DNA from: a virus
Length of the DNA: 52,130 nt
IMG/VR virus record: IMGVR_UViG_3300037247_000710
Span: 1-52,130 of that record
Direction: 5' to 3' (one strand)
The stretch's first letter is position 1; each line of letters starts with the position of its first letter. Shown here one piece after another: positions 3,633-26,903 of this stretch. The position numbers were made by a program, and so were the translations under genes. A model generated the notes under the pieces. The model did no database searches. It saw only the letters and a program-made list of their open reading frames with translations, and was not told where the DNA came from.

Positions 3633-4478
3633 ATGGGTAAGAACGTAGGACTGACATACGGAGAGTTCAAGTTCCCGGCGGAACAAGGCTTCACCGGCTC
3701 AGCTGGCGTGAATAAGGTGAAGGGCTACATGCGCGGCGGACACGTGAAGAAAACCGGTACCGCTAACGCCAAGCATGGCGGCTACATGGAGGGTGGATTA
3801 CACCCGAGTGCATCTCGGCGTGCAGTGGGTACGACACGCTCTGCGAAGGGTGGCAAGGTCATGAAGTACGCTGAGGGCGGCTACTACGGCAAGCCCGGTG
3901 ACAAGTATCCGACACTGAAGTCTGGTCCGAAGGGGAAACAGGGCAGCAGCCTGCCGAAGAACGTTAAGAAGCATGGTGGCAAGGTGTCGATGCACGACAA
4001 GCTCAAGCACGAAGGCGGCAAGATGGGTTATGCCTACGGTGGTCAGGTGAAAGACACCTCCAGCGAGTTCCTAGCGACACGTGGCAAGCAGGACACGATG
4101 GACCACGGTGTGCAGCCTGCACAGACAGGTCGCAATCAAGCAGAAGTCGAGGCTGGTGGCAACAAGCGTCTGAAGGCTGGGTATAGGAAAGGTGGCGTTA
4201 TCAAAGGACCGAAAAAAGGTGTGCATCGCGTGCGTGGTGTATTAGGTAAGCAAGTGCTTAGCGGTCTGAAGAAATTGAGAGGCGTCATGTCGGAGGGCGA
4301 CCGTGCTGCATCTCGGCGTATAGCTTCCGGTAAGAACATGCCGAAAAACGTTAAGGCGCATGGTGGACTCGCGAAGTACGCACACGGTGGTGCCGCTCGA
4401 AAACCGTACACCGGTTACAACAAACAGCCGGGAGGTAGTGGCAACGAAGACGCGAGGTATATGCAAGCAAAAAAATAG
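3633..4478 (+). CDS. Gly/Lys-rich basic virion-type protein with GG repeats
   Basis: 281 residues starting at an ATG with an AGGAGAGAGAAC ribosome-binding region, 13 bases after fibre 1. The protein is strongly basic and low in complexity. It carries about ten copies of a short unit of the form Y-x-x-G-G-x-V or H-G-G-K-V (YMRGGHVKK, AKGGKVMKYA, YAEGGYY, KHGGKVSM, YAYGGQVK, YRKGGVIKG, YAHGGAARK). The same unit recurs in several putative internal virion proteins further down the window, so this may be a DNA-associated or internal head protein. No catalytic domain is recognised. The function is an inference from composition and position only. Confidence 0.65.
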   Translation: MGKNVGLTYGEFKFPAEQGFTGSAGVNKVKGYMRGGHVKKTGTANAKHGGYMEGGLHPSASRRAVGTTRSAKGGKVMKYAEGGYYGKPGDKYPTLKSGPKGKQGSSLPKNVKKHGGKVSMHDKLKHEGGKMGYAYGGQVKDTSSEFLATRGKQDTMDHGVQPAQTGRNQAEVEAGGNKRLKAGYRKGGVIKGPKKGVHRVRGVLGKQVLSGLKKLRGVMSEGDRAASRRIASGKNMPKNVKAHGGLAKYAHGGAARKPYTGYNKQPGGSGNEDARYMQAKK

Positions 4479-4480
4479 GA

Positions 4481-4624
4481 ATGGCGCGAGGGGGCTCCGT
4501 TGAAAAGGTAGCCCGTCGCGTCGCGGAAAAGGTAATGGATCGTCACATCAGGTCCCCGAGACCAAAAGGTCACGGGACGAAACCCCGTGGTGGTCGTAGC
4601 AGGGTGAGAGGAGGCGGCTACTAA
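4481..4624 (+). CDS. small Arg-rich basic protein
   Basis: ATG at 4481 follows the previous stop by two bases, with purine-rich sequence (AAAAAATAGGA) just upstream. The TAA at 4622-4624 overlaps the ATG of the next gene (TAATG). The 47-residue product begins MARGGSVEKVARRVAEKV and ends in a run of Gly and Arg (RGGRSRVRGGGY). It is very basic and shares the RGG style of the preceding protein, so it could bind DNA or accompany it in the virion. Support is the exact overlap with both neighbours and biased composition. Confidence 0.6.
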   Translation: MARGGSVEKVARRVAEKVMDRHIRSPRPKGHGTKPRGGRSRVRGGGY

Positions 4625-5700
4625 TGCCAACAACTGGGACAGTCGGTTCGACCATCTTTACGAATCAGCAGATCATTGATCATGCTTTTCGTCGCTGCAA
4701 GATGGTTGAGCAAGAGATCACGGGCGAACACATAACGATTGCTCTCGATCTGCTGTGGTTGTACACGCAGACGCTGGTTAACAGAGGTATCAAGCTCTGG
4801 AACCTCGTACCTCTCCTTGAGCCGATCTACCATCGGCAGCAAACTCTTCCACTTCCTATCGGTACCGAAGATACGTACACCATCAACCTGCGTAATCAGC
4901 AGGTGCTTGGTGGACAGGCGAGTGCCACGGAAGGAGTTGCTGACAATGCATTCGACAGGGATCTGACTACTGCGTGTACGCAGGTGTCGGCTGCGGGATC
5001 GATCACTCTGCTAATAGAGAGCGCTACTTATGTGTCCACTTTCGGCATCTTGCCGAACGTCACCGACACGTGGGACTACGTGATCGAGGGATCGAACGAC
5101 AACTTTGTGTCGCAGACAGTGACGCTTCTTACGCGGACAGCTCAAGCAGTCGTTGCAAATCAGTGGCTCTGGGTTGACGTCCAAGGACCATTCGCGACTG
5201 GTGTCACAGATTTCATTTCGTACCGACTGCGAGCAACAGGTACTACGGTGCTTGATGTAATTGAGTTGGAGTTTCAGCATACGCCCAACGAAATTCCAAT
5301 GTACAAACTCAATCGGAACGATTACGTGAACCTGCCTGACAAGATCAGCACGGGAAGACCGACACAGTTCTGGTATGACAGACAACGCACGATCCCAGAG
5401 CTGGAGTTGTGGCCTAATCCCGGAGCTGAGTTTACGTTTCAGCAGGTGACAGGTTACGTGCAGAGACAATTGCAAGACGTCGGTGAGATGGTGGATGAAC
5501 TGGAGGTCCCTGACCGCTGGTACCTTGCCATCGTATGTAACTTGGCGGCAGAATTGGGCAGGGAATTGAGAGAGGTGGACGAGATAATTGTTCCCCGACT
5601 GGACCTCGACGCCCAAAAGTATTTGAGCGACGCATGGACAGGAGAGACCGACGAGTCTGAAGTGTACTTGCGTCCTAACATATCGCCATACACGAGGTAG
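4624..5700 (+). CDS. head-completion (P22 gp4-like) protein with an inserted beta domain
   Basis: 358 residues. The N-terminal helical part (FTNQQIIDHAFRRCKMVEQE to WNLVPLLEPI, about residues 11-65) and the C-terminal part (LPDKISTGRPTQFWYDRQ, LELWPNPG, QLQDVGEMVDELEVPDRW, about 235-320) resemble the P22 gp4 packaged-DNA stabilisation family, which seals the portal after packaging. Between them, about residues 95-215, is a beta-rich insertion (DNAFDRDLTTACTQ, TWDYVIEGSNDNF, YRLRATGTTVLDVIELEFQ) that looks like a discoidin or galactose-binding fold. The insertion could be surface-exposed on the neck. Start codon overlaps the upstream stop. Family assignment is by remembered pattern; the domain insertion is inference. 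Confidence 0.7.
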   Translation: MPTTGTVGSTIFTNQQIIDHAFRRCKMVEQEITGEHITIALDLLWLYTQTLVNRGIKLWNLVPLLEPIYHRQQTLPLPIGTEDTYTINLRNQQVLGGQASATEGVADNAFDRDLTTACTQVSAAGSITLLIESATYVSTFGILPNVTDTWDYVIEGSNDNFVSQTVTLLTRTAQAVVANQWLWVDVQGPFATGVTDFISYRLRATGTTVLDVIELEFQHTPNEIPMYKLNRNDYVNLPDKISTGRPTQFWYDRQRTIPELELWPNPGAEFTFQQVTGYVQRQLQDVGEMVDELEVPDRWYLAIVCNLAAELGRELREVDEIIVPRLDLDAQKYLSDAWTGETDESEVYLRPNISPYTR

Positions 5701-5702
5701 TC

Positions 5703-6068
5703 ATGCCTATCTTTTTAGATCCAACTGGGAACACGACTTACGGAATAGGTATCTGTGCTCGATGTAGCTGTAAGTTTTTCCTGCACGAGTTGCACTCTGA
5801 TCCGAACACACCGGGGTTGAAAGTTTGCATCGACGATCTCGATGATTACGATCCGTATCGTTTAGCTCCGAGGCAAGCAGATCGAATTACGTTACCGTTC
5901 TATCGACCTGATGAAGATCTGACGCCGGGAGGACCGAATCCGAATCCGATTTCCTTGTTTGGTGTTCGGGACGCTTTTGGCGCGAGCCCACGTGAATCGG
6001 AAGACGGAAGACTGCGAGTGCTTGAGGACGCTACTGTGAACGAGAACGAGGTAGATCTCGATGCCTAA
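5703..6068 (+). CDS. conserved phage protein with Cys cluster
   Basis: 121 residues. An N-terminal block (DPTGNTTYGIGICARCSCKF) contains C-x2-C followed about 20 residues later by Cys in GLKVCIDDLDDYDPYRL, suggesting a small zinc-binding fold. The second half is Pro/Asp-rich and probably flexible. I recognise the style (YGIGICARCS ... DDYDPYRLxxRQ) as a conserved protein beside gp4-like genes in podoviruses, but its job is unknown. The gene overlaps the start of fibre 2 by eight bases, consistent with coupled expression of neck and fibre genes. Confidence 0.65.
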   Translation: MPIFLDPTGNTTYGIGICARCSCKFFLHELHSDPNTPGLKVCIDDLDDYDPYRLAPRQADRITLPFYRPDEDLTPGGPNPNPISLFGVRDAFGASPRESEDGRLRVLEDATVNENEVDLDA

Positions 6069-9000
6069 TATAAAAATCTCCGATCTGCCTCCTATTACGT
6101 TGCCCGCTGTTGGAGATGAAAGTTTCTTCGAGGTGCAGACAGTTGAAGCGGGACAAGATGTCAGCCGAAAGATTTCGTTAGACGAGATCGTAAGTACCAC
6201 GGGGTTGGATGCATCCTTCCTCACGGTGTCTGCGAACGCGCAGCTGCCGAACGAACGAGTGCTGACTGAAGGGACTGGCATCTCCTTCGTTGACACTGGG
6301 CCGAACGGTACGCTGACGATCAATGCATCTGGAGTTACGTTCCCGCTGCTAGCTCCTTCCGGTTCTGCCGCTGCTCCATCATATGCGTTTACTGATGGTG
6401 ATTCAGGGTTCTTCGAACCTCTAGATGACAACATCCAAATTTCGCTGGTAGGTACAGCCCGATTCTTCTGGGAGTTGGATACATACAATGCTGAGGTAGG
6501 AACTGGTCCTGCGATGATAAACGTCGCTGCAAGTGCCACGGTTCCGGGATTTGTTCCAAGAAGGTCTGATCCAAATACAGGTTTGGGCTCCGCTGGTAAT
6601 GACATCTTGTCACTCATCGTAGGCGGAGTGTCAATAGCTCAAGCTACAAGCGTCGGCAATAATCAATTCGCGATAGCTCAATCAGGTTCATCATCCGTTC
6701 CTGAACTTACTTCTCTTGCAGACCCTGACACAGGATTCAGGTGGACAGGGGCTAATCAACTTACCTTCATCGGCAGTGGAAGTCGTGCGTGGCACTTCAC
6801 CAGTGCGAGGTTCTTCTCGGAGTTCAGTCAAGGTCCAGCTCTTCTAAACGTCACAGCGGACAATGATGTTCCCACTGTTCTAGCTGATCAATCAGATGCG
6901 AATACTGGTATCGGCTCGTCTGGAAACGATGAGATGTCATTGATTGCGGGTGGAGTTGAAGCTATCCGTATTGATGAAACGGCTGGAGCGATCCAAGTCA
7001 TCGTCGATCCCGGTCTCACCAATACAAGCGACGCTACTCCACCGTTAGCATTTGGAGGAGGCACAGTAGGATTCAGGTCTCCAGACAGTGATCAGATCTT
7101 CGCCATTCTCAGTGGGGCAGCGCAATGGAGATTTAGTACAGCAGATTTCAATGCAAACATTACAGATGGACCCGCACTTCGGTTCGTAACTCCGAGTGGC
7201 ATAGTCCCATCCCTTCTCCCCAATCAAAACGACACTGATACAGGTATCGGACAGAATGCAGCCGATGACCTATCCCTCATCGGTGGTGGTGTTGAATTGG
7301 CGAGAACGATCACTGCCGCAACAGGTGGAATGCTCGTTAACAATACGTTGACAGGTGCAGGATTGGAACGAGTCCTGACAGTATCTGATATAACTACTCC
7401 TGATCCGATACTACTTTCAGATGGTTCTGCCGCTGCTCCATCGTACAGTTTCGCTTCTGACACTGACATCGGTATGTTCCGTGTCGGTGCTGACATTTTA
7501 GGATTGTCAGCCAATTCGACGTTGATAGCTCAGGTCGTCGGTTCTCCCGGAGCCGATCAATTCGTTGTTGCTCCCGGAGCCGTTCAGAATAATGTTTCTG
7601 CTCCAGATCTTGGGTTCGGTGATGGTGACACTGGCGTCATGGAGACTGTGGACGACACTATCGCGCTCGTCACGGGAGCTGTTCTAGCAGTTCGGTACGC
7701 GAGATCAGGTTCTGGAATAACCCAAGTCAATGCCAGCGCAACTGGATTAGTTGCAAGCGTCACGCAGACCCAAGCTGGAGGTCTTGCGCTACTCAGTTCG
7801 TATAACGAAATTGCGACGGTAGCCAATTCAGGTGATGCGCTGACTGCCTTCCCTGTTCTTGAAGGTTCTCGTCTTATTGTTATCAACAACGGAGCCAATG
7901 ATCTTCAGTTATTCCCAGACGTCGGTGACGACTTTGGAGCAGGAGTTGACACGGCGATAACAATCGCGGCGGGAGAGATTGGAATATTCCTCGGTCAAAG
8001 CTCTACAGTTTGGGACACGCTGAAGAACGCTCCTGCTACAGGAGGTGGTGATGTAATCAAGGTCGGCACGCCTGTTGATAATCAGGTTGGAGTATGGACC
8101 GGAGACGGTACTATCGAGGGAACTACCGGGCTCACCTATGATGGGTCTGATCTAGATATCACGGGCAACATCACACTCACGGGTACTGTTGACGGCATCG
8201 ACATTGCAGTGGATGTCGCAGCTAACACCCTCAAAATCACGAACGCAACGCATACTGGGCAAGTCACAGGTGCCACGGCACTTGCCCTTGATGTCACCGC
8301 GATCACGGCTCAACCTGCTGCTGGCATACTGATCGGTGCGGATACATTTATCGTCAATGACGGTGGTGTTCTGTCCGAGATCACAGCTACCCAGATGGCT
8401 ACGTTCTTTGGAAATGCTATCCCCGGAACTGTCACGAATTCCATGCTTCGGTTTGACGGGGCGGATTTCATTGAAGAAACGCAAGTTCAAGTCACAGCTG
8501 CCGGTGTCTTCTCTGTCCTCGATGCTACTCTTGCAGACTCTGTATCTATCAGTCATAACGGAGCAGCAGGAACGATTGCTTCGGTTGGTTCAACATCATT
8601 GTCCTTTACTGGAGTCGCTACTCAGTATTCATTCGACAATAACGTCGTAGTCGCAGGTGACATCACAGTTGCTGGAGGCAATCGACTCATCGTTCTTGAT
8701 GCAATTGCTACTGATTCAGTAGTAATTGATCACGATGGTACAGACGGCAATATCGTTTCCACGTTGACCGCAGACCTGAACTTCACTGGTGTGAGCGTCG
8801 GCTACAAATTCGACGAGAGCATCTACATCACAGAGAAGACGACTGCCAACGCTGACTTCGCTGGTCTAGGACAGTTCTGGACTCGCGATGACGTACCTAA
8901 TATCCCGATGTTCACGAACGATGTTGGGATAGATTTCAAACTCGGTGTTGCGAGTGACGCTGTTCAGGCGCGACGCACGACATCCTTCACGATCACTACA

Positions 9001-9408
9001 GCATTTACAGATGTGACGTTGGACACGACTGACATAGAGACTGATGACCAGATCATCGAGCATAGCGGCACCACCGATAACATCGAGGCTTTGGTGGCAG
9101 GCACCTACGAAGTTACTTACGGTGCAGACATCAGTCCCGCTGCCGCAGGTAACGATAATATAAGAGCTTTCGGTCGGGTCCGCTTGAATGACGCAGGAGT
9201 TGATCTTCCCGGATCACTTGCATCTCAGAGTGCGTTTGAGGATGCGTCAACTATTGGTAATCAGGTCTTTGGTCGCTTGCAGTGTTCATTCATTGTTGTG
9301 TTGGCAGTATCCGATTTTCTGACGCTGCAAATGATGAAAGTCGAGATAGGTGGAACTGGAACATTCTCCGCTGACGAAGTCACTGTCACTGTTAAGAGGT
9401 TACTGTAA
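6061..9408 (+). CDS. large repetitive tail-fibre-like protein 2
   Basis: 1115 residues, paralogous in modules to fibre 1. The N-terminus (IKISDLPPITLPAVGDESFFEVQ) looks like an attachment domain. The body has repeated blocks of the form DTGIGxNAADxLSLIGGG, DTGFRWTGANQL and GDTGVMETVDDT. The KVGTPVDNQVGVWTGDGTIEG block found near the fibre 1 N-terminus occurs here near residue 665, so modules have been shuffled between the two genes. The last ~150 residues (TTSFTITTAFTDVTLDTTD, VAGTYEVTYGADIS) resemble a C1q/TNF-like trimeric head, a plausible receptor-binding tip. No catalytic depolymerase motif is obvious. The gene overlaps both neighbours slightly. Confidence 0.75.
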   Translation: MPNIKISDLPPITLPAVGDESFFEVQTVEAGQDVSRKISLDEIVSTTGLDASFLTVSANAQLPNERVLTEGTGISFVDTGPNGTLTINASGVTFPLLAPSGSAAAPSYAFTDGDSGFFEPLDDNIQISLVGTARFFWELDTYNAEVGTGPAMINVAASATVPGFVPRRSDPNTGLGSAGNDILSLIVGGVSIAQATSVGNNQFAIAQSGSSSVPELTSLADPDTGFRWTGANQLTFIGSGSRAWHFTSARFFSEFSQGPALLNVTADNDVPTVLADQSDANTGIGSSGNDEMSLIAGGVEAIRIDETAGAIQVIVDPGLTNTSDATPPLAFGGGTVGFRSPDSDQIFAILSGAAQWRFSTADFNANITDGPALRFVTPSGIVPSLLPNQNDTDTGIGQNAADDLSLIGGGVELARTITAATGGMLVNNTLTGAGLERVLTVSDITTPDPILLSDGSAAAPSYSFASDTDIGMFRVGADILGLSANSTLIAQVVGSPGADQFVVAPGAVQNNVSAPDLGFGDGDTGVMETVDDTIALVTGAVLAVRYARSGSGITQVNASATGLVASVTQTQAGGLALLSSYNEIATVANSGDALTAFPVLEGSRLIVINNGANDLQLFPDVGDDFGAGVDTAITIAAGEIGIFLGQSSTVWDTLKNAPATGGGDVIKVGTPVDNQVGVWTGDGTIEGTTGLTYDGSDLDITGNITLTGTVDGIDIAVDVAANTLKITNATHTGQVTGATALALDVTAITAQPAAGILIGADTFIVNDGGVLSEITATQMATFFGNAIPGTVTNSMLRFDGADFIEETQVQVTAAGVFSVLDATLADSVSISHNGAAGTIASVGSTSLSFTGVATQYSFDNNVVVAGDITVAGGNRLIVLDAIATDSVVIDHDGTDGNIVSTLTADLNFTGVSVGYKFDESIYITEKTTANADFAGLGQFWTRDDVPNIPMFTNDVGIDFKLGVASDAVQARRTTSFTITTAFTDVTLDTTDIETDDQIIEHSGTTDNIEALVAGTYEVTYGADISPAAAGNDNIRAFGRVRLNDAGVDLPGSLASQSAFEDASTIGNQVFGRLQCSFIVVLAVSDFLTLQMMKVEIGGTGTFSADEVTVTVKRLL

Positions 9409-9785
9409 TGGGATTCAAAGTAGTGGCAACACTTTCTCACGATTGGATAAAGATTGCCGAGTTAGCAGGAGCCGAGCCGTTCCTCAACGTCTGGCATCCA
9501 GATACCACTGAATTAGAAGTTGAGAGTGTAGATCAAGCGACTCTCGACACGGCATTCGCTGATTACGTAGCCGACCAGACGAACATCGACGCCGCGACTC
9601 AGGCAGCAAGAAATACAGTTGGTAGAGATTTCGATAAGGATTTGTATGACAACAAACGTCTCTGGAGGGCAGTCGTTGAACTCCTGATCGACGAGATGAA
9701 CATACTCAGAACAATAGAAGGTTTACCCGACCGGACGATAGCGCAAGCTCGTTCGGCAATCCGCAACAAGATAGATAACTTATAG
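9408..9785 (+). CDS. small fibre-partner protein, copy A
   Basis: 125 residues, starting on the last base of the fibre 2 stop (TAATG). It is clearly paralogous to the protein at 15041-15433: both share a Leu-Glu-Val-x-x-(D/S)-x-x-x-L-D-T-A-F-A-D-Y block, a helical middle and a C-terminal stretch L-N/D-I-L-R-x-I-E-G-L-P-x-R-T. Both sit directly after a fibre gene, so a fibre-assembly chaperone or a small structural subunit tied to each fibre is the best inference. The family is not one I can name. No signal peptide, membrane segment or catalytic motif is seen. Confidence 0.65.
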   Translation: MGFKVVATLSHDWIKIAELAGAEPFLNVWHPDTTELEVESVDQATLDTAFADYVADQTNIDAATQAARNTVGRDFDKDLYDNKRLWRAVVELLIDEMNILRTIEGLPDRTIAQARSAIRNKIDNL

Positions 9786-9795
9786 GGCGAAGACA

Positions 9796-10113
9796 ATGGA
9801 ACAACCAAGAGTAGATCTCAACCCCCAGCAGGTTCAAATGGCCGCTAACGCGGGACTCTCATTATTGAACACCCCCGGAGCTGTGAATGTTCCGGGTCCG
9901 ATGGCTGTCAGTGGAGTGATAAAAACACTGGCGCAGCTGTTGACGGCTATCGTCAATCAAGAGGTGATGGTAGTTAACGTCCCGGTGCAATTGAAAGATG
10001 CGCCAAAACCTGCTGAGCCAGAAAATAAGGAGGTGGCAAAAGCAGTTGCAGCTGCCGTGGAATCGTCAGGAAATTCTGAGGAGTCTCCGGCTGCAAAGGT
10101 ATCGGAGAGATAA
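9796..10113 (+). CDS. hypothetical protein upstream of lysis genes
   Basis: 105 residues beginning MEQPRVDLNPQQVQMAANAG. The N-terminal two thirds is moderately hydrophobic and helical (SGVIKTLAQLLTAIVNQEV), and the tail is Glu/Lys/Ala/Ser-rich and likely disordered. The stop is followed within two bases by the ATG of the membrane protein at 10115, so it appears co-transcribed with the lysis block. No known domain is recognised. It may be a small structural protein rather than a lysis factor. Confidence 0.6.
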   Translation: MEQPRVDLNPQQVQMAANAGLSLLNTPGAVNVPGPMAVSGVIKTLAQLLTAIVNQEVMVVNVPVQLKDAPKPAEPENKEVAKAVAAAVESSGNSEESPAAKVSER

Positions 10114-10114
10114 A

Positions 10115-10495
10115 ATGGCAAGCAAAGCTGAAGTCAAAGAGGCAGGGATTCGTATAGGTGTCAATCAGCTCGTCACTTACGCGAGTCTCGTGCCCATCTT
10201 CTGGTTCATCCTTCAACCTATCCTTGTGGATGCACTGGCTGAAGAGATGCAGGAGTCGATCAAGCAGACCGTCGCAACTGAGGTTGCTCCGATCAACAAT
10301 GCATTCGTGGCACTGCTTCAACGGGACATCAATGCAACTAGAAAGGACATGGCGGCGTTGAGATTTCGTCGGGATAATCCACCGGATGATGACTGGACTG
10401 CTGAGGATGCAGCGTATTTAGCAGACTTAGAAATTCAAATGGATGCACTCGAAGAAGCGAAGGCCGCACTTCAGGCAAACACAGATACGAGCTGA
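10115..10495 (+). CDS. single-pass membrane protein with coiled coil, candidate i-spanin
   Basis: 126 residues. The ATG at 10115 is chosen over the open frame extending upstream because GGAGAGATAAA precedes it and the upstream extension lies inside the previous gene. There is one transmembrane segment at about residues 18-40 (SLVPIFWFILQPILVDAL), then a charged helical region (EEMQESIKQ, MDALEEAKAALQ). This N-in, coiled-coil layout is what inner-membrane spanins (Rz type) look like, and it sits immediately before the endolysin. It could equally be a small structural membrane protein. The stop overlaps the endolysin start (TGATG). Confidence 0.6.
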   Translation: MASKAEVKEAGIRIGVNQLVTYASLVPIFWFILQPILVDALAEEMQESIKQTVATEVAPINNAFVALLQRDINATRKDMAALRFRRDNPPDDDWTAEDAAYLADLEIQMDALEEAKAALQANTDTS

Positions 10496-10962
10496 TGGAC
10501 GCGACGCAGCTACGGAAATTGATCGTTCGACCTTCTCTGGAGGAGGTCGGACTTCATTCCGCTGCTGCCGAAGATCTTGTCATGGGGACTGCGGCTCAAG
10601 AGTCGCACCTCATGTACGTTAAGCAGCTGGGAGGTGGTCCCGCGTTGTCGTTGTTTCAGATTGAACCGGCGACGTATAAAGATTACTGGGATAACTATCT
10701 CAATCATCGTGTGGACTTGATTACAGAGATACAAAAAGCCTGTGGATTCCAAGGAGTGCCTGAACCTTCACGGTTGGTTTGGGACCTTAAATTTGCGTCC
10801 ATCATGTGTCGCATTCACTACAGAAGGATCAGTAGTCCTCTTCCAGAACACGGTGACATTGCAGGTTACGCCGCGTACTGGAAGAAGTATTACAACACCG
10901 TCCACGGGGCGGGAACTGAAGAAGAGTTCGTGCAGAATTATGAGTTAGTGGAGGAGAATTAA
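10495..10962 (+). CDS. endolysin, lysozyme/transglycosylase-like
   Basis: 155 residues. The core GTAAQESHLMYVKQLGGGPA followed by LSLFQIEPATYKDY is the pattern of lysozyme-fold muramidases and lytic transglycosylases. A catalytic Glu lies in AAQES (Glu36), and the FQIEPATY segment forms part of the substrate groove. It would cleave peptidoglycan at the end of infection. There is no signal peptide, so it depends on the holin encoded two bases downstream. Short length is normal for a single-domain phage enzyme. The start overlaps the upstream stop. Confidence 0.75.
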   Translation: MDATQLRKLIVRPSLEEVGLHSAAAEDLVMGTAAQESHLMYVKQLGGGPALSLFQIEPATYKDYWDNYLNHRVDLITEIQKACGFQGVPEPSRLVWDLKFASIMCRIHYRRISSPLPEHGDIAGYAAYWKKYYNTVHGAGTEEEFVQNYELVEEN

Positions 10963-10963
10963 A

Positions 10964-12053: not shown

Positions 12054-12056
12054 TCC

Positions 12057-15031: not shown

Positions 15032-15040
15032 GGGAATACG

Positions 15041-17261: not shown

Positions 17262-17265
17262 AGCT

Positions 17266-19353
17266 ATGCCATTACTTAAGGGTGAGATGGAAAAAGGTAA
17301 GGAACTTGTGGGGCAGGGTCGTCTTCTTGCGCAAGCGGCACGCGGAGAGAACTGGTCGAATGTACTTGATACGAATCAGGACAGACTCCGAGCTGGGAGA
17401 GGATCAGCTAAACGTCTTATGAAAGGTACACGTATGCAAAACCTAGCTCAGAGACAACAGCAAGCTGCGGAGACGATGCAGCCCAAAGGTGGTCTGGCTC
17501 AGCTGATGGCACAGCAGGGCGCTTCGAAATCCATGGTCGAGGATGTGCAGAAGATCGAGGACACACCGGGAGGCAAGGAGTTGCTCTACACGCAGGCAGC
17601 TCAGGGACTGATGAAGAAGCAGGGTGTGCCGGAGAAAGATACCAAGAAGGTCCGTCTCTACCGGTACGGGGGTGCAGTCGAGCGAGCTTATGCTAAAGGT
17701 GGTGACGTCAAGGCTGCAGCAGCGAAGGCACAGGGCGCAGGACGTGGCGAAGACGAGATGCTGGTTCACATGACCGGAGAAGAGTTCGGTGTTATCAAAG
17801 GCATGTGGGGTGAACCTGATATCAACCCGAACACCGGACTACCTGAGTACGGATTCCTCAGCAAGATCTGGAAGAAGGTCAAGAAAGTTGTGAAGAAGGT
17901 CGTCCAATCAAAGATCTTTCAGGTCCTCGCACCTATCGCGTTGTCAATCTTTGTACCGGGTCTCGGTGCTGCCATCGGTGGCATGCTGGGAGCGAGTGGT
18001 ACTACTGCTAGTGTGATCGGTAACGCTCTGGTTCGAGGTGGACTGAGTGCAGCCGGTGGTGGTGACTTTGCAACTGGAGCAATTTCCGGGGCTATCTCTG
18101 GGGGGCTTGGTTCTCTGGCTGGTGAACAGGTTGGGAAACTAGGTCTCGGTCTGTCCGACCGTACCGCAGAAATCGTTGGCTCCAGCTTGGCAAGTGGCGC
18201 AGGTTCCTCACTGACTGGTGGCGACTTCGTTACAGGTGCCCTTGCCGGAGCTACCGGGGAGATGATGCGTCCGATGATGGAAGGCGTCACCGCGAAAGGA
18301 CAGGCGATGTTAGGTCTTCAAGATCCAGCTGGTGGTGGCATTCTGGCTGAGAGAATTCCCGAAGGGACTGGTGCCCTTGAGGATGTAGCTGGTCTGGGAG
18401 CTGAAGGTCTGGCACCGGGTGAAATAGGTCCGCCTGAGACGCCCCCAGTGGTAGGTCCAACACGTGAGGAGATGGGAGCTGTTGGTGGAGGTAAACTAGC
18501 AACACAGCAGGTAACTCCAGATACTGGTGCTCCGCAAGATCCAAGCTTCCTGCAGCAATACGGTATGCCTGCGCTATTGGCGGCAGGTGCACTCGGTGGT
18601 GGCGAATACGAAGAAGGCGAGCCTCCTCCGTTGCCGGAAGGTTGGAATGATCCGTTGCCGCTTTACGAAATGAATCGACAGTTCCAAGGCATGGACCCCG
18701 ATGCGTACTACACGTACGGACAGGCAGGTGCACCTCAATCTGGACAGCATCTGTTCATGCAGCCTGAGCCCTTCGCCGGAGTGCCCACCGACCCGACGAC
18801 CCCAACTCCGGGAGCTGGAGGCAACATGCAGGCTATGATCGCAGCTGGTCAGCCAGTGCCTGCCAACATGGTAGGTGTCGCTGGATCAGCACCTTTGACG
18901 CAGGCTGGTTACACGCAAGATCCCAACACAGGTAACTGGAATCCACCACAGCAGCTGGGGCAGGGCATGCCGCAGGCTCGTGGTGGCTACCAGCGTGGAG
19001 GTGAGTTCGACTACTGGTCTCAGAATGCAGACGTTCCTCGTGTAGCGCCCACTGTGAGCGCTCAGGGACGTTATGTTAAAGGGCAGGGCACTGGCAGGTC
19101 TGATGACATCCCGGCTCGACTGAGCGACGGTGAGTACGTCATGGACGCAGAAACGGTGGCGCTCTTGGGTGACGGATCGGGAAGTGCCGGGGCTAAACGG
19201 CTCGACGAGATGCGCCGGAATCTGCGTAAGCACAAAGCTCAGAACCTCAAGAAGGGGGGCTTCAGCCACAAGGCGAAGACACCCCACCAGTACATGGCGC
19301 GAGGCGGCATGGCAAAACTCCGCCGAGCAATGACCGAGTCAGGGAGAATATAA
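17266..19353 (+). CDS. putative internal virion / DNA-ejection protein 1
   Basis: 695 residues from ATG 17266, chosen because an upstream extension would run through the previous gene and a GGGATAGAG stretch precedes this ATG. Order: helical N-terminus; LYRYGGAVERAYAKGGDVK (about 131-149) with the YxxGG motif; a Lys-rich amphipathic stretch (about 200-216, KIWKKVKKVVKKVVQSK) leading into a Gly-rich hydrophobic region (about 218-300) suited to membrane insertion; a Pro-rich linker; and a C-terminal block DDIPARLSDGEYVMDAETVA that I associate with podoviral internal or ejection proteins. Likely released with the DNA. The exact role in the ejection channel cannot be assigned. Confidence 0.62.
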   Translation: MPLLKGEMEKGKELVGQGRLLAQAARGENWSNVLDTNQDRLRAGRGSAKRLMKGTRMQNLAQRQQQAAETMQPKGGLAQLMAQQGASKSMVEDVQKIEDTPGGKELLYTQAAQGLMKKQGVPEKDTKKVRLYRYGGAVERAYAKGGDVKAAAAKAQGAGRGEDEMLVHMTGEEFGVIKGMWGEPDINPNTGLPEYGFLSKIWKKVKKVVKKVVQSKIFQVLAPIALSIFVPGLGAAIGGMLGASGTTASVIGNALVRGGLSAAGGGDFATGAISGAISGGLGSLAGEQVGKLGLGLSDRTAEIVGSSLASGAGSSLTGGDFVTGALAGATGEMMRPMMEGVTAKGQAMLGLQDPAGGGILAERIPEGTGALEDVAGLGAEGLAPGEIGPPETPPVVGPTREEMGAVGGGKLATQQVTPDTGAPQDPSFLQQYGMPALLAAGALGGGEYEEGEPPPLPEGWNDPLPLYEMNRQFQGMDPDAYYTYGQAGAPQSGQHLFMQPEPFAGVPTDPTTPTPGAGGNMQAMIAAGQPVPANMVGVAGSAPLTQAGYTQDPNTGNWNPPQQLGQGMPQARGGYQRGGEFDYWSQNADVPRVAPTVSAQGRYVKGQGTGRSDDIPARLSDGEYVMDAETVALLGDGSGSAGAKRLDEMRRNLRKHKAQNLKKGGFSHKAKTPHQYMARGGMAKLRRAMTESGRI

Positions 19354-20574
19354 ATGGGCAGTGCCACAGACTTTCTATTTGAGGGCAAACCTCCACAGTC
19401 GGTCACGACCTATGGGACGACTGTAGAAGGCACCCCGAAATGGATGTCCGACTACACGCAGGGGCTGATCGCACGTGCGAACGCAGCGGCAGCTGAGCCT
19501 TACATTCCGTACGGTGGACCGAGGATTGCAGGATTCGATCCTGCACAAGAAGCTGCGTTTGGGATGACTGAGGAGAATGTTGGTGCGTATCAGCCGTACC
19601 TCGAAGCAGGTGCTCAGGGCTATACCGGAGGCTTAGAAGCTGCGGGGGGTATGCGGGAGAGAGCGCAGCCGTACATTGATGCGGCAACCGGGAAGTGGAC
19701 TGATCCCGGCGTCTCTGAGTCCTACATGAACCCGTACATCAGTGGCGTGCTCGACCGGCAGGAACAACTTGCCACGCGTACGTTAGAAGATAAGTTTCTA
19801 CCGGGGTTGCAAAGAGCTTTCGCAGGAGCTGGACAACTAGGCTCTCGTGGTGGCGAGGGTTCGATGGAAACCATGGGCATCCGTGGTATGAGGGATATTC
19901 AAGAAGGACTCGAAGCGCAACGTCTTGAAGCACTCTCTGGAGCCTACGGTCAGGGAGCTGACATCTATGGGCGAGACATTACGAGTGCGCGAGAACTGGC
20001 ACGTGTGTCGGGTGCCCTCGATGAGGCTCAGGCTGGTGCTATGTACCAAGGTGCTGAGGGACTGGGTCGCATGGGTGAAGCAGCTCAGCGGATGGGTCTC
20101 ACAGATGCCGCAGCGATGGAAGCTATCGGTGCACAGAGACGTGGGCTTGAACAGGGAAGTATGGATCTTGCGTATCAGGATTTCTTGGAACAACGCGATC
20201 TGCCATGGCAGCGCATCGGACAGATGTCGGAAGTCATCCGAGGCTTGCCGCCATCGTTTGTACCGAGAGCAACGCAGCGTACTGATGTAGGACCGGCGTC
20301 GGTTTACCAGCCGTCACCGCTGTCACAAATCATCGGTGGCTATGGTGTGTATCGTGGTATGCAGGGAGCCGAAGGTGGTTACATCGAGCCGGGAGGGCTG
20401 GAAGACTACGGACTAGGAGGGATGGTGCGTGATACCGGAGCGAGGTTATTTGGCTTGGGAAAACAGGGAGCGGGCGCGTTGAGTAGGTGGGCGCGCTCGC
20501 TATACCCAGATTCAAGCAGGAGTGTTGGTGTCGCAGGAGGAAAACTCCTGAAGCTGAAACACAAGCAGGATTAA
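19354..20574 (+). CDS. putative internal virion protein 2
   Basis: 406 residues, starting directly after the preceding stop with an AGGGAGAATATAA ribosome-binding region. The segment YIPYGGPRIAGFDPAQEAAF and the later YMNPYISGVLDRQEQLATR, followed by long Ala/Gln/Glu-rich helices with many ALSGAYGQ-like units, match a conserved phage family placed among ejection or head-vertex proteins. A C-terminal EGGYIEPGG carries the GG motif shared with neighbours. Mostly helical; no enzyme motif seen. Confidence 0.6.
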   Translation: MGSATDFLFEGKPPQSVTTYGTTVEGTPKWMSDYTQGLIARANAAAAEPYIPYGGPRIAGFDPAQEAAFGMTEENVGAYQPYLEAGAQGYTGGLEAAGGMRERAQPYIDAATGKWTDPGVSESYMNPYISGVLDRQEQLATRTLEDKFLPGLQRAFAGAGQLGSRGGEGSMETMGIRGMRDIQEGLEAQRLEALSGAYGQGADIYGRDITSARELARVSGALDEAQAGAMYQGAEGLGRMGEAAQRMGLTDAAAMEAIGAQRRGLEQGSMDLAYQDFLEQRDLPWQRIGQMSEVIRGLPPSFVPRATQRTDVGPASVYQPSPLSQIIGGYGVYRGMQGAEGGYIEPGGLEDYGLGGMVRDTGARLFGLGKQGAGALSRWARSLYPDSSRSVGVAGGKLLKLKHKQD

Positions 20575-20578
20575 TGTC

Positions 20579-22006
20579 ATGAGAGCAGAAGTGGAACGTG
20601 CATATCAAACTGGTGGTGACGTTTATGGTCCTCCAGAGGAAGAGATCATCACCACGGTTGACCAATTGATCCCGGATCCGATGCCGCGAACGAAGCCTAC
20701 TACTACGCGTGAGCTGATTGACATACACCGTGAGCAGCAGGTACAGAAACTCAAAGGTGGTCAGGAACGAATTGCAGCAAGACGTGCGGAGATGGAAAAG
20801 AAAGATAAGCAAGCCAGATGGTTTGCACTTGCGCAGGGTATGTTGGCACCGACAAAGACTGGCGGCTTTGGTGAATCGCTGGGTGCAACTGCGGGGCTGC
20901 TGCGGCAGGAACAGGAAATGTCTCGTCAGGGAATGAGCGATCTCTTAGCCGAAGAAACGCTGCTTGCGAATCAGGAAAGTGATGTTGGAGCAGACTACAT
21001 TTCTCAACTTCAAGCTCAAGAACGGATAGAAAAAACAGGCGCGGAAAGATTGGGACGTTTCGCGAAACGTACTCCGGTAGGTGTAGCTGGTCTGTTTGCC
21101 CATCCCGACAATCCCGACAGGGATGCACGTGCTCAGCCGATGTGGGATCCCGACCTAGAGGAACCGCAATTTAATGAAGATGGAACTCCTCTGCTTGACG
21201 AAAACGGGGAGCAAGTAATTAAACTCGGTGGCATGGAGCTGGATTATTTGGACACTCCCGGTCCCGACGGTAGCATTCCATATGCCACATCTCAGTTCGA
21301 TGTACATCGGCAGGCGGAATTGTCGAAAGTTAAAGAATTTTCACAGGACTACATAGCACGAGCCAGCAATGACATTGAAGGTGCGCGGGAAGCATGGATA
21401 ATGATCCCGAAACTTGAAAGGACAATGACATTACTGGAGGACGTGGGGGAAGGAGGACCCGGCACAAGTGGGTGGGTAGCATTAGTACAGGGACTGCAGG
21501 AATGGTTTGGTGTTGATACCAGAGATGTCACTAACATAGGCGTGCTACGTCACAAGTTAGGTCAGAACGTCCTTGACGGTCTCAAACATTTTCCGGGACA
21601 AATTTCAGAGGGTGAACGGAAGTACATGGAGAGACTGGAAACTTCCATTTCGAAATCAACCAGCATAAACATAGAGCTTATTAGAGAGGGTCTGAGACTG
21701 CAGAAAGAACGATGGAAGAGAGGAAAAACTTCCGCTGTAGAATTGGCAACAAACCCCAACCTTGCATCCATGATGAGGATGGACTTTTTAGCCATGGGAC
21801 TTGATCCAGATAACTTAGATAAAGACCCTATCGGTTCATACGGATCAATTGAAAAAGACGAGGTGGGATCGACTCGTCATAATCCATTACCTGTTGGACC
21901 GAATACTCCTCGTCCTGCAGTTGGGACATGGGTACAGTTCACGGACCCTGCAACCGGCGAGTTAATAACGAAAAGGATAGGGGCACCTGCACCGGTGCCG
22001 GAGTAA
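20579..22006 (+). CDS. putative internal virion protein 3
   Basis: 475 residues starting MRAEVERAYQTGGDVYGPPE, again with a YxTGGDV motif at the N-terminus. A long charged coiled-coil region follows (ELIDIHREQQVQKLKGGQER, ARRAEMEKKDKQARW), then WFALAQGMLAPTKTGGFGE and a helical C-terminal half. The composition and position in the ejection block suggest a long helical internal protein, possibly forming part of the trans-envelope channel. No catalytic domain is recognised. Confidence 0.58.
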   Translation: MRAEVERAYQTGGDVYGPPEEEIITTVDQLIPDPMPRTKPTTTRELIDIHREQQVQKLKGGQERIAARRAEMEKKDKQARWFALAQGMLAPTKTGGFGESLGATAGLLRQEQEMSRQGMSDLLAEETLLANQESDVGADYISQLQAQERIEKTGAERLGRFAKRTPVGVAGLFAHPDNPDRDARAQPMWDPDLEEPQFNEDGTPLLDENGEQVIKLGGMELDYLDTPGPDGSIPYATSQFDVHRQAELSKVKEFSQDYIARASNDIEGAREAWIMIPKLERTMTLLEDVGEGGPGTSGWVALVQGLQEWFGVDTRDVTNIGVLRHKLGQNVLDGLKHFPGQISEGERKYMERLETSISKSTSINIELIREGLRLQKERWKRGKTSAVELATNPNLASMMRMDFLAMGLDPDNLDKDPIGSYGSIEKDEVGSTRHNPLPVGPNTPRPAVGTWVQFTDPATGELITKRIGAPAPVPE

Positions 22007-22010
22007 GAAC

Positions 22011-24071
22011 ATGGCTGACGAAGAAACACTTGCACCAGTACCGTGGTATTTAGATGAATCTATTTATGAACCTGAACCTGAGAAGGGACCGGGTACTGTC
22101 AATGACTGGATGAATCAACCCGACGTAACGGGTAAGAGATTTCCCATCGATCCGCAAATGACTGCGGAGCAACTCGACGTGCTGCCGGAGATGACGGATA
22201 CCGCAAAAATGATCGAAGGGTTTTCCGAACCGGGAGAGGGAGTAGACGGACCTATCATGGGAACGTTGAGGCGCATCGGTACCGAGTTGAAACAAGGATG
22301 GATGCAGATGTCAACGTCAGATCCCATGGAACTGGGGTCGCAACTACAGAATCGATTCCCGGACGTCGTTGAGGTACGACTTGCAATTAACCCTTCAGGC
22401 GACGGTTCCTACATCGCAGTTGCCAAAAATAAACTCACTGGTTACGAGGCTGTGATCAACAAACCGGGAATGAGCATGCAAGATGTGCTGCAGACTATCG
22501 GTCTGGTGGGTCAGTACTTGCCTGCTGCAAAAGTCACAACTGCAGTCAAAGCACTAGTCCCACGGATAGCTGTCGCAGCTACTGCCTCAGGAGCTACGGA
22601 GACTGCAATACAAGCGGGGCAGGCTGCTCTTGGAGGTGAGTTCGATCCTGAAGATGTCGCACTGGCTACAGCGTTCGCTGCGGTCCCGGAAATAATAGCT
22701 AAACCCGCAGTAGGATTAGCATTGAAAAGCAAAGAACTGCTTTCTAGACATATGCCTGAAGCAGTCCCGGCGTCGATTCGTAGTGCATTGACATGGGCGG
22801 AGAAGCAGGGATACAAAATTACATCATCAGATGCACTGAACGAATTTCTCACAGCCCCACAGAGAATCTTTCTCAAGATTACTGAACGTATTCCCGTGTT
22901 CGGTACGCAACGAATTAAAAATGCGCAGAAGGCACAACGTGCTGACGCTCTGAAGAGGATGGCAGACAAGTTTGATATTGATATCGAGAGTGATCTTGGA
23001 CAGGAAATTGCTGAAAGTTTTATAGATCGGATGAAGAATTGGCGTTTCTTTGGTAAGCACGCAGACCCAACAGATGAAATGCTAGATCGTGCTTTTAAGA
23101 AGGAGGCAGCAGGCATTATTGACAACACTCTCAAAAGAAAAATTAAGACTGCAACAGTAGAAAACGGGAACATCGATGATGGGTTGGTCGATATGGTTTT
23201 CAAAGGCAACAAGCCTCAGATTGTCAGGGACTTCATGAGAAAATTAACTCCTGAAGGGCAGGACGCAGCACGCCGAAGATTTATACAGGAAGGATTGGAG
23301 CGGACAGGGTACAAACCGGGACAACAAGTCGGCATCGCTAATCCGGGAGCCTTTGTAAAGTATCTCGATGAGCATGACAAGATAATAAAGGAACTCTTCC
23401 CCGACGTGATACACGATCCTAAGGCGTCGCATCTTTTTGCAGAGATGACTGGTGGACCCGGAATGGTACCGGCTCCAGCTTTGAAAGCGCAGCGGGAATA
23501 CCTAGAAGGGTTCAAAGAATTCCTCAGGATTACCGATGATGCAGAGAAAGCAAGTGCAGGTGCAGGCATGACTGCAGCGATGGCAGCGGGTGGAGGATTT
23601 TATCTCTTCGACATCATGGGAGGTGCGCTAGCCGGATTCGGTACTGCAATGGCAGGTCATGCAATGCAAAGTAGATTGGCTCGCAATTTGTTTCTACGTC
23701 TGAAACATTCCAAAGGCAATCCTGAGTTGCAGCAACAGATCATGAAGGAATTACGCCCGTTAATATTAGGAACGGGTAATAAGGCACTGCAGGAAGGCGT
23801 GGACATGCCCATGCTGAACATGTCTATGAGCCCTGACATGATACAGGAGGGGGCAGCAACTGGCGCGTCAGCGGCGATGCAGATACTGAGAGCAACCATG
23901 GGGACTGTCGGCGAAACTATTGGAGGTGTTCTGGGTAGCTCCCGTGGAGATCTAACGGAAGGTGGTATAAGTCCTACCGACATAGGTAGAGGTTCTCTTG
24001 TACAAGGTCCCGGAATGGAAATGCTGCGACGAGCTGCGGAATCTGCGCAGGGAATACCCCCGGAGGAATAA
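22011..24071 (+). CDS. putative DNA-transfer / internal virion protein 4
   Basis: 686 residues. The acidic N-terminus (EETLAPVPWYLDESIYEPEP) is followed by an alpha/beta portion, then Ala/Val-rich segments (IAVAATASGATETAIQAGQA), a basic helical middle, and near residues 520-555 a Gly/Ala-rich hydrophobic stretch (AAMAAGGGFYLFDIMGGALA) suited to membrane association. Such alternation of helices and membrane-active segments is typical of pilot/ejection proteins of podoviruses. The stop overlaps the ATG of the terminase small subunit by one base. Confidence 0.6.
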   Translation: MADEETLAPVPWYLDESIYEPEPEKGPGTVNDWMNQPDVTGKRFPIDPQMTAEQLDVLPEMTDTAKMIEGFSEPGEGVDGPIMGTLRRIGTELKQGWMQMSTSDPMELGSQLQNRFPDVVEVRLAINPSGDGSYIAVAKNKLTGYEAVINKPGMSMQDVLQTIGLVGQYLPAAKVTTAVKALVPRIAVAATASGATETAIQAGQAALGGEFDPEDVALATAFAAVPEIIAKPAVGLALKSKELLSRHMPEAVPASIRSALTWAEKQGYKITSSDALNEFLTAPQRIFLKITERIPVFGTQRIKNAQKAQRADALKRMADKFDIDIESDLGQEIAESFIDRMKNWRFFGKHADPTDEMLDRAFKKEAAGIIDNTLKRKIKTATVENGNIDDGLVDMVFKGNKPQIVRDFMRKLTPEGQDAARRRFIQEGLERTGYKPGQQVGIANPGAFVKYLDEHDKIIKELFPDVIHDPKASHLFAEMTGGPGMVPAPALKAQREYLEGFKEFLRITDDAEKASAGAGMTAAMAAGGGFYLFDIMGGALAGFGTAMAGHAMQSRLARNLFLRLKHSKGNPELQQQIMKELRPLILGTGNKALQEGVDMPMLNMSMSPDMIQEGAATGASAAMQILRATMGTVGETIGGVLGSSRGDLTEGGISPTDIGRGSLVQGPGMEMLRRAAESAQGIPPEE

Positions 24072-24652
24072 TGCCTGCACGACGACTGACAAACGGGAGA
24101 GGACGGAAGTTTGTGCGTAACACCGCAGGTCAGCTGCTGGCTGAGCAACATCGTCTGTTCCTCCCTGATCACCTCGACCAAGTGCGAGCGATTGCAATGC
24201 GAGGTATCAAAGAAGAACAGATGTCCGAGATCTTCGACATCAGTCGCAAGCAAATGGGTCTGTGGAAAGCACAGTACCCGTTGTTCAAGGATGCACTCGA
24301 AGCAGGTTACACCGACGCTGATGCTGCTGTCCTTGGTGCTCTGTACCAGAGTGCCGTCGGTTACATGCACGAGGAAGAGAAAATTTTTCAGTGGGACGGA
24401 GAAATTATCCGTGCCGATACAGTTAAGCATTACAAGCCAGACACTGCAGCGATCAAGCTATGGATAACCAACCGGCAGAAGGAACACTGGAAGGATCGTC
24501 ATCACACGAACGTGTCGGGCACGGATGACAAGTCACCCATTGGTATCCGCGACGAGACGAAGCTGGAAGTCATGGCGAGTATTCTTTCACTGATCAAACC
24601 GAAACCAGACAACGCAGTCATTGATGGTCGCACTGGGACGGTGGACAAATAA
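24071..24652 (+). CDS. terminase small subunit-like protein
   Basis: 193 residues. An N-terminal helix-turn-helix-like segment (VRAIAMRGIKEEQMSEIFDI then SRKQMGLWKAQYPLFKDALE) would recognise the packaging site. A central helical part (DAAVLGALYQSAVGYMHEEE) would oligomerise. The C-terminal AAIKLWITNRQKEHWKDRHH is the hallmark I associate with this terminase small-subunit family. It would recruit phage DNA for the large subunit, which is not in this window. An alternative is a phage DNA-binding regulator. The product ends four bases before the next stop-start junction. Confidence 0.7.
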   Translation: MPARRLTNGRGRKFVRNTAGQLLAEQHRLFLPDHLDQVRAIAMRGIKEEQMSEIFDISRKQMGLWKAQYPLFKDALEAGYTDADAAVLGALYQSAVGYMHEEEKIFQWDGEIIRADTVKHYKPDTAAIKLWITNRQKEHWKDRHHTNVSGTDDKSPIGIRDETKLEVMASILSLIKPKPDNAVIDGRTGTVDK

Positions 24653-24653
24653 C

Positions 24654-26903
24654 ATGCCATCGAAAACTCCGAAGCAGGCAAAATTTATGCGTGCCATTGC
24701 ACACGGTTGGACACCGAGTCGTGCGAAGAATCCACCGTCGCGTGCAGTGGCGCAGGAGTTCGTGAACGCTGACCGAAAATACTCCGGTGGCTTTGCAGAG
24801 AACCGGTACTGGGTAGGTGGACTCGCAGCTATGGACCAAGTGAACGCTGGACTTAAGGGATCTCTTGACACTCCGTTCCAAGCGTTCGAAGAAGGTGGTG
24901 ACGTTGTTACTGATGAGGCTCTTCAAAAAGCACGTGCCGTTGCTGATGCAAGACTGGGCAATTACAAGGCAGCGAGATTTACACTCGGTAAAGATCATTC
25001 AGCTACGAAAAAACTTAAGGAATCTTATCTGGAAGCGAAACATAAGGCTGTGGATATGGCAAATCGTGTAGGTGCTGGTGCAGGTGGAGGTGGAGGTGCG
25101 GGTTATCAAAGGGGCGGCAGAGCAGGTCGTCGAGGTGGACGAAGAACGAATGGCGGAGCAGGAACATCTACAACGACGAACGTACCTACTGTTACAGCTC
25201 CAGATGTTTCCCCTTACGGGACTGAGGCTGGTACAACTCAACAAATGTTTGACCGAATGGGGTATAGCGGTCCTATAGGTTACCTCCGTACCGTCTCTGA
25301 CTTACGGCAAGCAGGGTGGACTCCGGCTAGTGGAGGCTCCGATGATCTGCGAAACAGAATGTGGTATCCCCCCGAGCAGACGCTCACAGGAGAAGATGCC
25401 CCTCCACCGAGAATTATCCCGACGGACCCTGCAAGTTATATAGGGGGGGCCGCACTTGGTACCTCAGATGGTGAAGGTGGAGGTGGTGGCTCAGGTGAAG
25501 GAAGCGAACACCGAGAACAGTTACGTAAACATCAAATGAAAATTGCAGCAATACTAGGCAGTGCCCGAGGAGGTCACGTGAATTACTACGACGAAGGGGG
25601 AGCAGTACGTCCCGGTCATGCAGAAGGACCCAACCCTCACAATAAGGCTAAGACACCGGGGATGTGGGCAACGTGGGAAAGGAAATATCACATTGATCCT
25701 CCCCCTCCGCCTGAAGTTGCAGAAGAAGTAGCAGAAGAGGGGGGCGTAGCAAACTGGTTACGAAGTTTGTTCACTCCTGATCCCGAAACAGCCATCGGCT
25801 CTGGCGAGGCACGGGGGACAATCGAGGAGCAGATGGAAGCAGAGGGTCAAGCTTACGGTGGTCGCGTCCGCTATCAGGCTGGTGGTCTTGCGATAGCCGC
25901 ACCCGCTGGAGGTGTACCCCCGTGGATAGCACCTACCGGATCCGGTCCCGGCTACATGGATGAACCTCCTCCGGGATATCAGTTCGGTGGAATTGCCGAC
26001 AGGTTTAACCCTCCACCTGCAGCAGCACCTGCAGCTGCCGTTGCACCACCGCAGGGGCAGATAATGAACCGGGCACAGTCAGAGTTCAACGCTCAAACGG
26101 GTGGACCGAGAGGCGGAGTGATGGGTGGTCCTCCGGGTGGCTTAGCTGCGATGCAGCAGCAGGCAGAGCAGCAGCGAGCCGGAGTAGCAGGTCGTTTACC
26201 TCCGGGCATTGATCCCCGAGCTGTCGCTGCAAATCCAGAAGGATGGGCACGCCAGCAGGCAGAAATGCAGCGAATGCAGAGTAACGCTGGAGGCGCACCG
26301 GGATTTGCACCGGGCGAGGGAGATTTGATGCGACAACAGGAAGGTGCGAGAAGCATCATGGACCGGATAGGTGGAGGTGGTGGACGCTTCGGTGCAGAGA
26401 TGCGACGAGCACGTGGCATGCAAACATATCAAGACGTCGTTAACCGAGGTGAGGGTGGAATCAATCCCCGCTTACCCGGTGGTGGTCGAATGTACGGTGG
26501 TGATGGAGAGGTAGGTATCAATCCACCTCCTAGTGGACCTTTCCAACCCCCACCGGGACGAAGAGTCATAGGAGGGTCAGGAAAGTTTGGTGACCCCTAT
26601 CAGTATGGTCGGGGATCAGGTGGCAAACCGAGACCGGGACCGGGAATGATGCCGCCGGGTGAAGAGGGTGGAGGTATTCCGGGTGGACCTAGAGTGCCAC
26701 CTAACATGCGAGGCTACTTGCAGAAGCAACGGATGATGAACCGTCCTCCAGCTAACGTGGGAGGAGGCGCGAACCGTGTCGGGATGCAGGACCAACAAGG
26801 CGCACTTTCGAGGGCGATGCAGAGAGGGACTGGTCGTGCACCACCGTCACGCCGGTTTGGTCGCGGGCGCGCAGGTGCGGGTCGCGGATTCCAGCAGCGG
26901 TAG
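24654..26903 (+). CDS. Gly/Pro-rich virion-type protein with N-terminal conserved domain
   Basis: 749 residues from ATG 24654, two bases after the terminase stop. The N-terminal ~65 residues (TPKQAKFMRAIAHGWTPSRA then AVAQEFVNADRKYSGG) are a short domain found in many phage proteins. The rest is low-complexity: Gly/Arg-rich, Pro-rich and Met-rich, with repeated GG units (FEEGGDVV, YQRGGRAG, ARGGHVNYYDEGGAVRPGH, AYGGRVRYQAGGL). This looks like a flexible internal or scaffolding-like protein, or one bearing docking motifs. It is the last gene of the plus-strand structural block. A 53-base gap separates it from the convergent HAD gene, with no clear terminator hairpin. Confidence 0.6.
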   Translation: MPSKTPKQAKFMRAIAHGWTPSRAKNPPSRAVAQEFVNADRKYSGGFAENRYWVGGLAAMDQVNAGLKGSLDTPFQAFEEGGDVVTDEALQKARAVADARLGNYKAARFTLGKDHSATKKLKESYLEAKHKAVDMANRVGAGAGGGGGAGYQRGGRAGRRGGRRTNGGAGTSTTTNVPTVTAPDVSPYGTEAGTTQQMFDRMGYSGPIGYLRTVSDLRQAGWTPASGGSDDLRNRMWYPPEQTLTGEDAPPPRIIPTDPASYIGGAALGTSDGEGGGGGSGEGSEHREQLRKHQMKIAAILGSARGGHVNYYDEGGAVRPGHAEGPNPHNKAKTPGMWATWERKYHIDPPPPPEVAEEVAEEGGVANWLRSLFTPDPETAIGSGEARGTIEEQMEAEGQAYGGRVRYQAGGLAIAAPAGGVPPWIAPTGSGPGYMDEPPPGYQFGGIADRFNPPPAAAPAAAVAPPQGQIMNRAQSEFNAQTGGPRGGVMGGPPGGLAAMQQQAEQQRAGVAGRLPPGIDPRAVAANPEGWARQQAEMQRMQSNAGGAPGFAPGEGDLMRQQEGARSIMDRIGGGGGRFGAEMRRARGMQTYQDVVNRGEGGINPRLPGGGRMYGGDGEVGINPPPSGPFQPPPGRRVIGGSGKFGDPYQYGRGSGGKPRPGPGMMPPGEEGGGIPGGPRVPPNMRGYLQKQRMMNRPPANVGGGANRVGMQDQQGALSRAMQRGTGRAPPSRRFGRGRAGAGRGFQQR

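Follow-up and report, generated by a model that had tools for sequence, protein, structure and literature searches.

A YxxGGxV peptide recurs in tape-measure-like, ejection-type and other proteins of an IMG/VR phage and its relatives

Introduction

The IMG/VR virus record IMGVR_UViG_3300037247_000710 (52,130 nucleotides; this whole stretch is referred to below as the window) encodes several mutually dissimilar proteins in which a short peptide, YxxGGxV, keeps returning, which raises the question of what such a peptide does and for which proteins. A first-pass annotation had read it as a shared docking, cleavage or packaging tag that directs proteins into the head. Encapsulin cargo-loading peptides and phage capsid-targeting peptides are likewise short, often terminal and carried by unrelated cargo proteins; the peptide described here resembles them in these respects, but has a different sequence, is found on carriers that include tail-lumen proteins and is known, for the present, from sequence. 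The motif itself is new, whereas docking peptides are a known kind; no description of it was found in the literature searched (open-licence papers). Neither a large terminase nor a major head protein was recognized among the window ORFs scanned (1-52130), and related phages have genomes of 62-65 kb with the head genes upstream; the record is therefore probably an incomplete genome lacking about 10 kb.

Results

Strict copies of the motif, [YF]xxGGx[VIALMF], that is, [YF]xxGGx followed by a hydrophobic residue, were counted in translated long ORFs. The window contains 15 of them over five proteins, designated here by their start positions (four in 3633, three in 17266, one each in 19354 and 20579, six in 24654), against 0.04-0.3 copies per protein expected from residue shuffles. 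The other 53 window ORFs contain none, which confirms the claimed absence from replication proteins, and 22011, a member of the same ejection cluster, is also devoid of strict copies. Around 70 isolated GG pairs in the window, Tyr at position -3 is enriched 8.3-fold and Val at +3 3.6-fold, and the codons of the motif vary between copies. The strong enrichment over shuffles bears out the recurrence noticed in the first-pass annotation, in five proteins rather than at least six, but several of the copies then listed had to be revised: 3633 holds not about ten copies but four strict ones, six YxxGG and 13 GG in all; YRYGGAV and YAKGGDV of 17266 stand, whereas YMARGGMA is offset by one residue; EGGYIEPGG of 19354 is not strict, the true copy being YGLGGMV; the single YQTGGDV of 20579 is as reported; and FEEGGDV, YQRGGRA and YDEGGAV of 24654 are joined by YWVGGLA, YQAGGLA and YQFGGIA, which had been overlooked.

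Table 1. Motif-carrying proteins of the window and their motif copies (proteins are designated by start position).
Feature	Position	Strand	Similarity or evidence
281-aa basic Gly-rich protein 3633, six YxxGG copies (four strict)	3633..4478	+	motif present in every homologue from relatives
YMRGGHV (in 3633)	3726..3746	+	orthologous copies in relatives
YMEGGLH, non-strict (in 3633)	3783..3803	+	
YAEGGYY, non-strict (in 3633)	3867..3887	+	
YAYGGQV (in 3633)	4029..4049	+	orthologous copies in relatives
YRKGGVI (in 3633)	4182..4202	+	orthologous copies in relatives
YAHGGAA (in 3633)	4377..4397	+	orthologous copies in relatives
695-aa protein 17266, tape-measure-like C-terminal module, ejection/internal-protein type	17266..19353	+	PHROG tape measure matches; profile match to Douge tape measure protein, PDB 8zdo
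YRYGGAV, first of conserved twin (in 17266)	17659..17679	+	
YAKGGDV, second of twin (in 17266)	17689..17709	+	orthologous copies in relatives
YQRGGEF (in 17266)	18988..19008	+	orthologous copies; segment with pLDDT under 50
GxGTGRSDDIPARLSDGEYV module, common to tape measure proteins (in 17266)	19051..19179	+	
YMARGGMA, offset variant near C-terminus (in 17266)	19291..19314	+	
406-aa ejection-type protein 19354, conserved helical core and variable C-terminal tail	19354..20574	+	DNA ejection protein phrog_4287; similar to phiM5 gene 27
YGLGGMV in variable tail, residue 352 (in 19354)	20407..20427	+	
475-aa protein 20579, after 19354 in ejection cluster	20579..22006	+	synteny with phiM5 internal virion proteins (putative)
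YQTGGDV at residue 9 (in 20579)	20603..20623	+	
749-aa Gly/Pro-rich protein 24654, downstream of small terminase gene	24654..26903	+	open frame listed from 24621
YWVGGLA (in 24654)	24807..24827	+	
FEEGGDV (in 24654)	24885..24905	+	
YQRGGRA (in 24654)	25104..25124	+	
YDEGGAV (in 24654)	25587..25607	+	
YQAGGLA (in 24654)	25872..25892	+	
YQFGGIA (in 24654)	25977..25997	+	

What kind of proteins carry the motif is clearest in the middle of the window. Protein 17266 matches PHROGs tape measure proteins through its C-terminal module only, and no tape measure core domain was found in it in Pfam, PHROGs or NCBIfam. In the mycobacteriophage Douge, gp16 (PDB 8zdo) has a C-terminal module of the form YxxGGx[VL]xGPGTGxSDSIxARLSxGEFV, to which the GxGTG/DGEYV module of 17266 corresponds; Douge gp16 contains two such modules, with YAGGGFL and YANGGFL immediately ahead of them, and several IMG/VR tape measure proteins show the same arrangement, with tandem YxxGGxV ahead of the module. 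Unlike these, most motif proteins are devoid of the module, which a simple pattern detects in 9 of the 32 large carriers and in none of the 48 small ones. Residues 1658-1699 of the Douge tape measure protein have been assigned in the baseplate, the remaining density being too diffuse, so that its motif copies are not visible (PMC13033339).

Protein 19354 matches the DNA ejection protein family phrog_4287 (E=1.5e-8) and resembles phiM5 gene 27, the record of which notes detection of the product in the particle proteome, whereas the motif-free 22011 matches the DNA transfer protein family phrog_770 (E=4.8e-5); both are related by sequence to proteins annotated as ejection or internal virion components. 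A fold search with the 19354 model returned generic helical bundles from the PDB and, among viral matches, proteins of uncultured phages, a few of which include an auto-processing chaperone domain. The ejection proteins of podoviruses (T7 gp14-gp16, P22 gp7/gp16/gp20) are of the same kind as the carriers and are encoded in the same type of gene cluster; the passages searched in a review of them describe no such motif (PMC8954989). Proteins 3633, 20579 and 24654 are putative virion components. A homologue of 3633 comes after the head genes in a relative (L079), and all 29 sequences homologous to 24654 contain the motif; among annotated phages, no homologue of either protein was found. At its start, 24654 has a short domain, PSKTPKQAKFMRAIAHGWTPSRA, with a match to phrog_16759, a family of unknown function.

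The motif is located in tails at the protein ends or in linkers modelled with low confidence. Aligned members of the 19354 family share a conserved core up to about residue 340, beyond which a tail of variable length carries one to three copies; of 29 homologues of 20579, 22 have their first copy beginning at residue 4-15. In two of these homologues (L087 10246-12177 and L022 11295-13115) about 185 residues have been added at the N-terminus, and motif copies flank the added region, one at the new N-terminus and others retained at the old junction. An L048 protein with an N-terminal motif was considered as an independent case and ruled out, an 80-residue segment being common to it and 20579. 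The AlphaFold models are weak, with a mean pLDDT of 58 for 19354 and 57 for 17266, and the copies lie in or beside segments with pLDDT under 50, such as residues 329-377 around the copy in 19354; at this low overall confidence, the models suggest disorder around the motif.

To follow the motif in relatives, IMG/VR was scanned with 19354, 3633 and 15433, yielding 106 loci. Observed copies exceed the shuffled expectation in homologues of all five proteins (52 vs 1.4 for 3633, 88 vs 11.5 for 17266, 62 vs 11.6 for 19354, 30 vs 1.7 for 20579 and 75 vs 6.3 for 24654), with 0, 38, 9, 1 and 4 copies of the reversed motif, respectively, the orthologues behind these counts not being independent of one another. 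The reversed motif is thus rare, the 38 copies being those of the Gly-rich 17266 family. Terminase, the DNA-transfer protein (22011) and other structural genes of relatives show the motif at or near chance. In a count that covers six whole records, with no gene-by-gene selection, the five families contain 72 copies vs 10 of the reversed motif, 57 of the 72 being further copies from the five relatives alone, and ORFs outside the five families contain 11 copies vs 14.7 shuffled. Glycine richness alone was accordingly ruled out as the source by the shuffles and the reversed motif, less clearly so for 17266.

The consensus in relatives is Y or F, often A or Q, any residue, G, G, and often L, V or A; in all five families Y, G, G and V are fixed and the x positions variable, as is characteristic of short linear motifs. 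At the best site, YRYGGAV of 17266, 25 distinct DNA sequences all encode Y, G, G and V, with all four Gly codons in use at both glycines and 5-7 different residues at the x positions. Although this set was gathered with a motif-shaped pattern, the 17266 alignment, made without it, gives the same columns (Y132, G135, G136 and V138 conserved in at least 90%, those between them not). Fixed anchors, variable x positions and the use of all four Gly codons indicate that selection acts on the peptide, and a DNA-level repeat was ruled out as its origin, codons differing among copies and among orthologues. Copy number turns over among orthologues.

The phenomenon is wider than the first-pass annotation had noticed. 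A two-copy pattern detected at least 120 loci in IMG/VR, where all 120 of those listed have the pattern in an open frame and all 129 matches listed are in phase, and at least 117 in bacterial genomes, where the matches listed fall into phases 90:26:18 and 63 of the 117 listed loci have a match in an open frame; these in-frame fractions can be compared, whereas the locus densities cannot, and choosing loci by the motif inflates the IMG/VR copy counts but not the frame statistics. The bacterial matches listed are mostly chance, low-complexity or prophage-like, some being tape-measure-like, and the motif is in this sense phage-specific. Four IMG/VR scans with a pattern one base short, i.e. out of frame, gave 1, 1, 2 and 8 loci with no in-frame double motif, a rough negative control with an unmatched spacing range.

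When the motif was masked, proteins of the viral loci and of the window formed 46 clusters; 41 of these contain no window protein, and three window families are each alone in a cluster, so the carriers are dissimilar, although small low-complexity proteins are probably over-split. Several of the carriers listed are named tape measure proteins in PHROGs and NCBIfam, including those of long-tailed phages, and one has a lytic transglycosylase domain related to internal virion proteins. Small Lys/Gly-rich carriers are unnamed in both collections; they bear five to six copies in 78 residues, one every 10-12 residues, and in one lineage adjoin terminase and portal genes. The small YAKGG proteins are accompanied in about 45 loci (e.g. 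L155 11791-12462, L138 1859-2533) by the ‘ferredoxin’ of phrog_3704, which is conserved and about 225 residues long; that name may be wrong, as its sequence has no obvious ferredoxin cysteine pattern. This neighbour was considered as a partner of the motif and set aside, the association being common to one lineage.

The motif is not universal to ejection proteins, since it does not exceed chance in phiM5, LUZ24, P-SSP7 and the pelagiphages HTVC010P and HTVC019P; unlike the window phage, the T7-like records tested are without it. A few copies are present in MinM2 and Caulobacter phage RW. The ejection cluster of MinM2 ends in a 2803-aa gene labelled RelA/SpoT (L116 15886-24297).

Discussion

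Which of the roles proposed for the motif agrees with these observations? A shared docking tag fits a peptide that is short and degenerate, conserved at the protein level, located at apparently flexible termini, subject to copy turnover and found on dissimilar proteins. The notion that the tag directs proteins into the head found no support, as the carriers include tape measure proteins, which in long-tailed phages occupy the tail; a description as cargo that departs together with the DNA suits the carriers better than one as head cargo. We thus favour, tentatively and as a reading with a real if less than even claim, a short linear motif by which tail-lumen and ejection cargo would dock to a putative common partner. 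[YF]xxGGx[V/A] would be an exposed peptide in the flexible tails and linkers of proteins of the tail lumen or head interior that are expelled with the DNA, namely, tape measure and ejection proteins, and also of small multi-copy Lys/Gly-rich proteins encoded among the late genes. Tyr and Val/Ala may serve as two anchoring side chains, with Gly-Gly forming a tight turn between them; the motif would dock into a groove of the common partner, during either assembly or ejection, and several copies per protein would raise avidity. Binding itself, a partner common to all carriers and the time of action are the parts that we infer.

Alternatively, the copies might associate with one another, forming a loose network that holds cargo in the particle until ejection and needs no separate receptor. 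Multiple copies, the combination of an aromatic residue with Gly-Gly, low-complexity surroundings and small proteins consisting of little besides the motif are all reminiscent of such stickers; yet several proteins have a single copy only, and Val/Ala conserved at a fixed spacing is more specific than stickers usually are, which leaves self-association unlikely. It is rather unlikely that the motif is a partner-free structural element, giving shape to the linkers of Gly-rich proteins as a helix stop or an aromatic-turn-hydrophobic clip: Y(i), GG(i+3, i+4) and V(i+6) could make a turn and some copies come after predicted helices, but others begin at residue 4, with no room for a preceding helix, the motif is limited to few protein families per phage and, among the matches listed, few in-frame cellular proteins have a double motif. 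A role on the host side, with the motif binding a conserved envelope or cytoplasmic factor during DNA entry, would account for its presence in phages of different kinds and for the delivery into the cell that many carriers share; it appears improbable, the small proteins not being known as ejected and no host factor being indicated.

Adenovirus-type and ubiquitin-like proteases cut at xxGG sites, but cleavage of the motif by a maturation protease at or after its invariant GG, one of the roles first proposed and compatible with trimming of the terminal copies in the 19354 and 20579 families, is very improbable: conserved anchors flank GG on both sides, the small proteins are densely packed with tandem copies, no protease was recognized in the head module of L079 (an insensitive search and weak evidence), and Pro follows GG in 7 of the 25 distinct sequences of the most conserved 17266 site (in relatives as a whole, this holds for 9 of 236 copies, 7 of them from that one site), an argument against cleavage after GG at this site, though not against cleavage between the two glycines.

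A broader version of the docking reading, which we consider doubtful, is that the motif represents one general address of phage ejection cargo, convergent in short- and long-tailed phages; a conserved component of the virion or of the host would read it and thereby gather, or let go, the proteins that depart with the DNA. Little is understood of the way in which tape measure and ejection proteins are brought together in the particle and then released in order. The motif marks many such proteins and thereby predicts cargo among unnamed phage genes, and for the small YAKGG-type proteins encoded beside terminase genes it provides a first functional lead.
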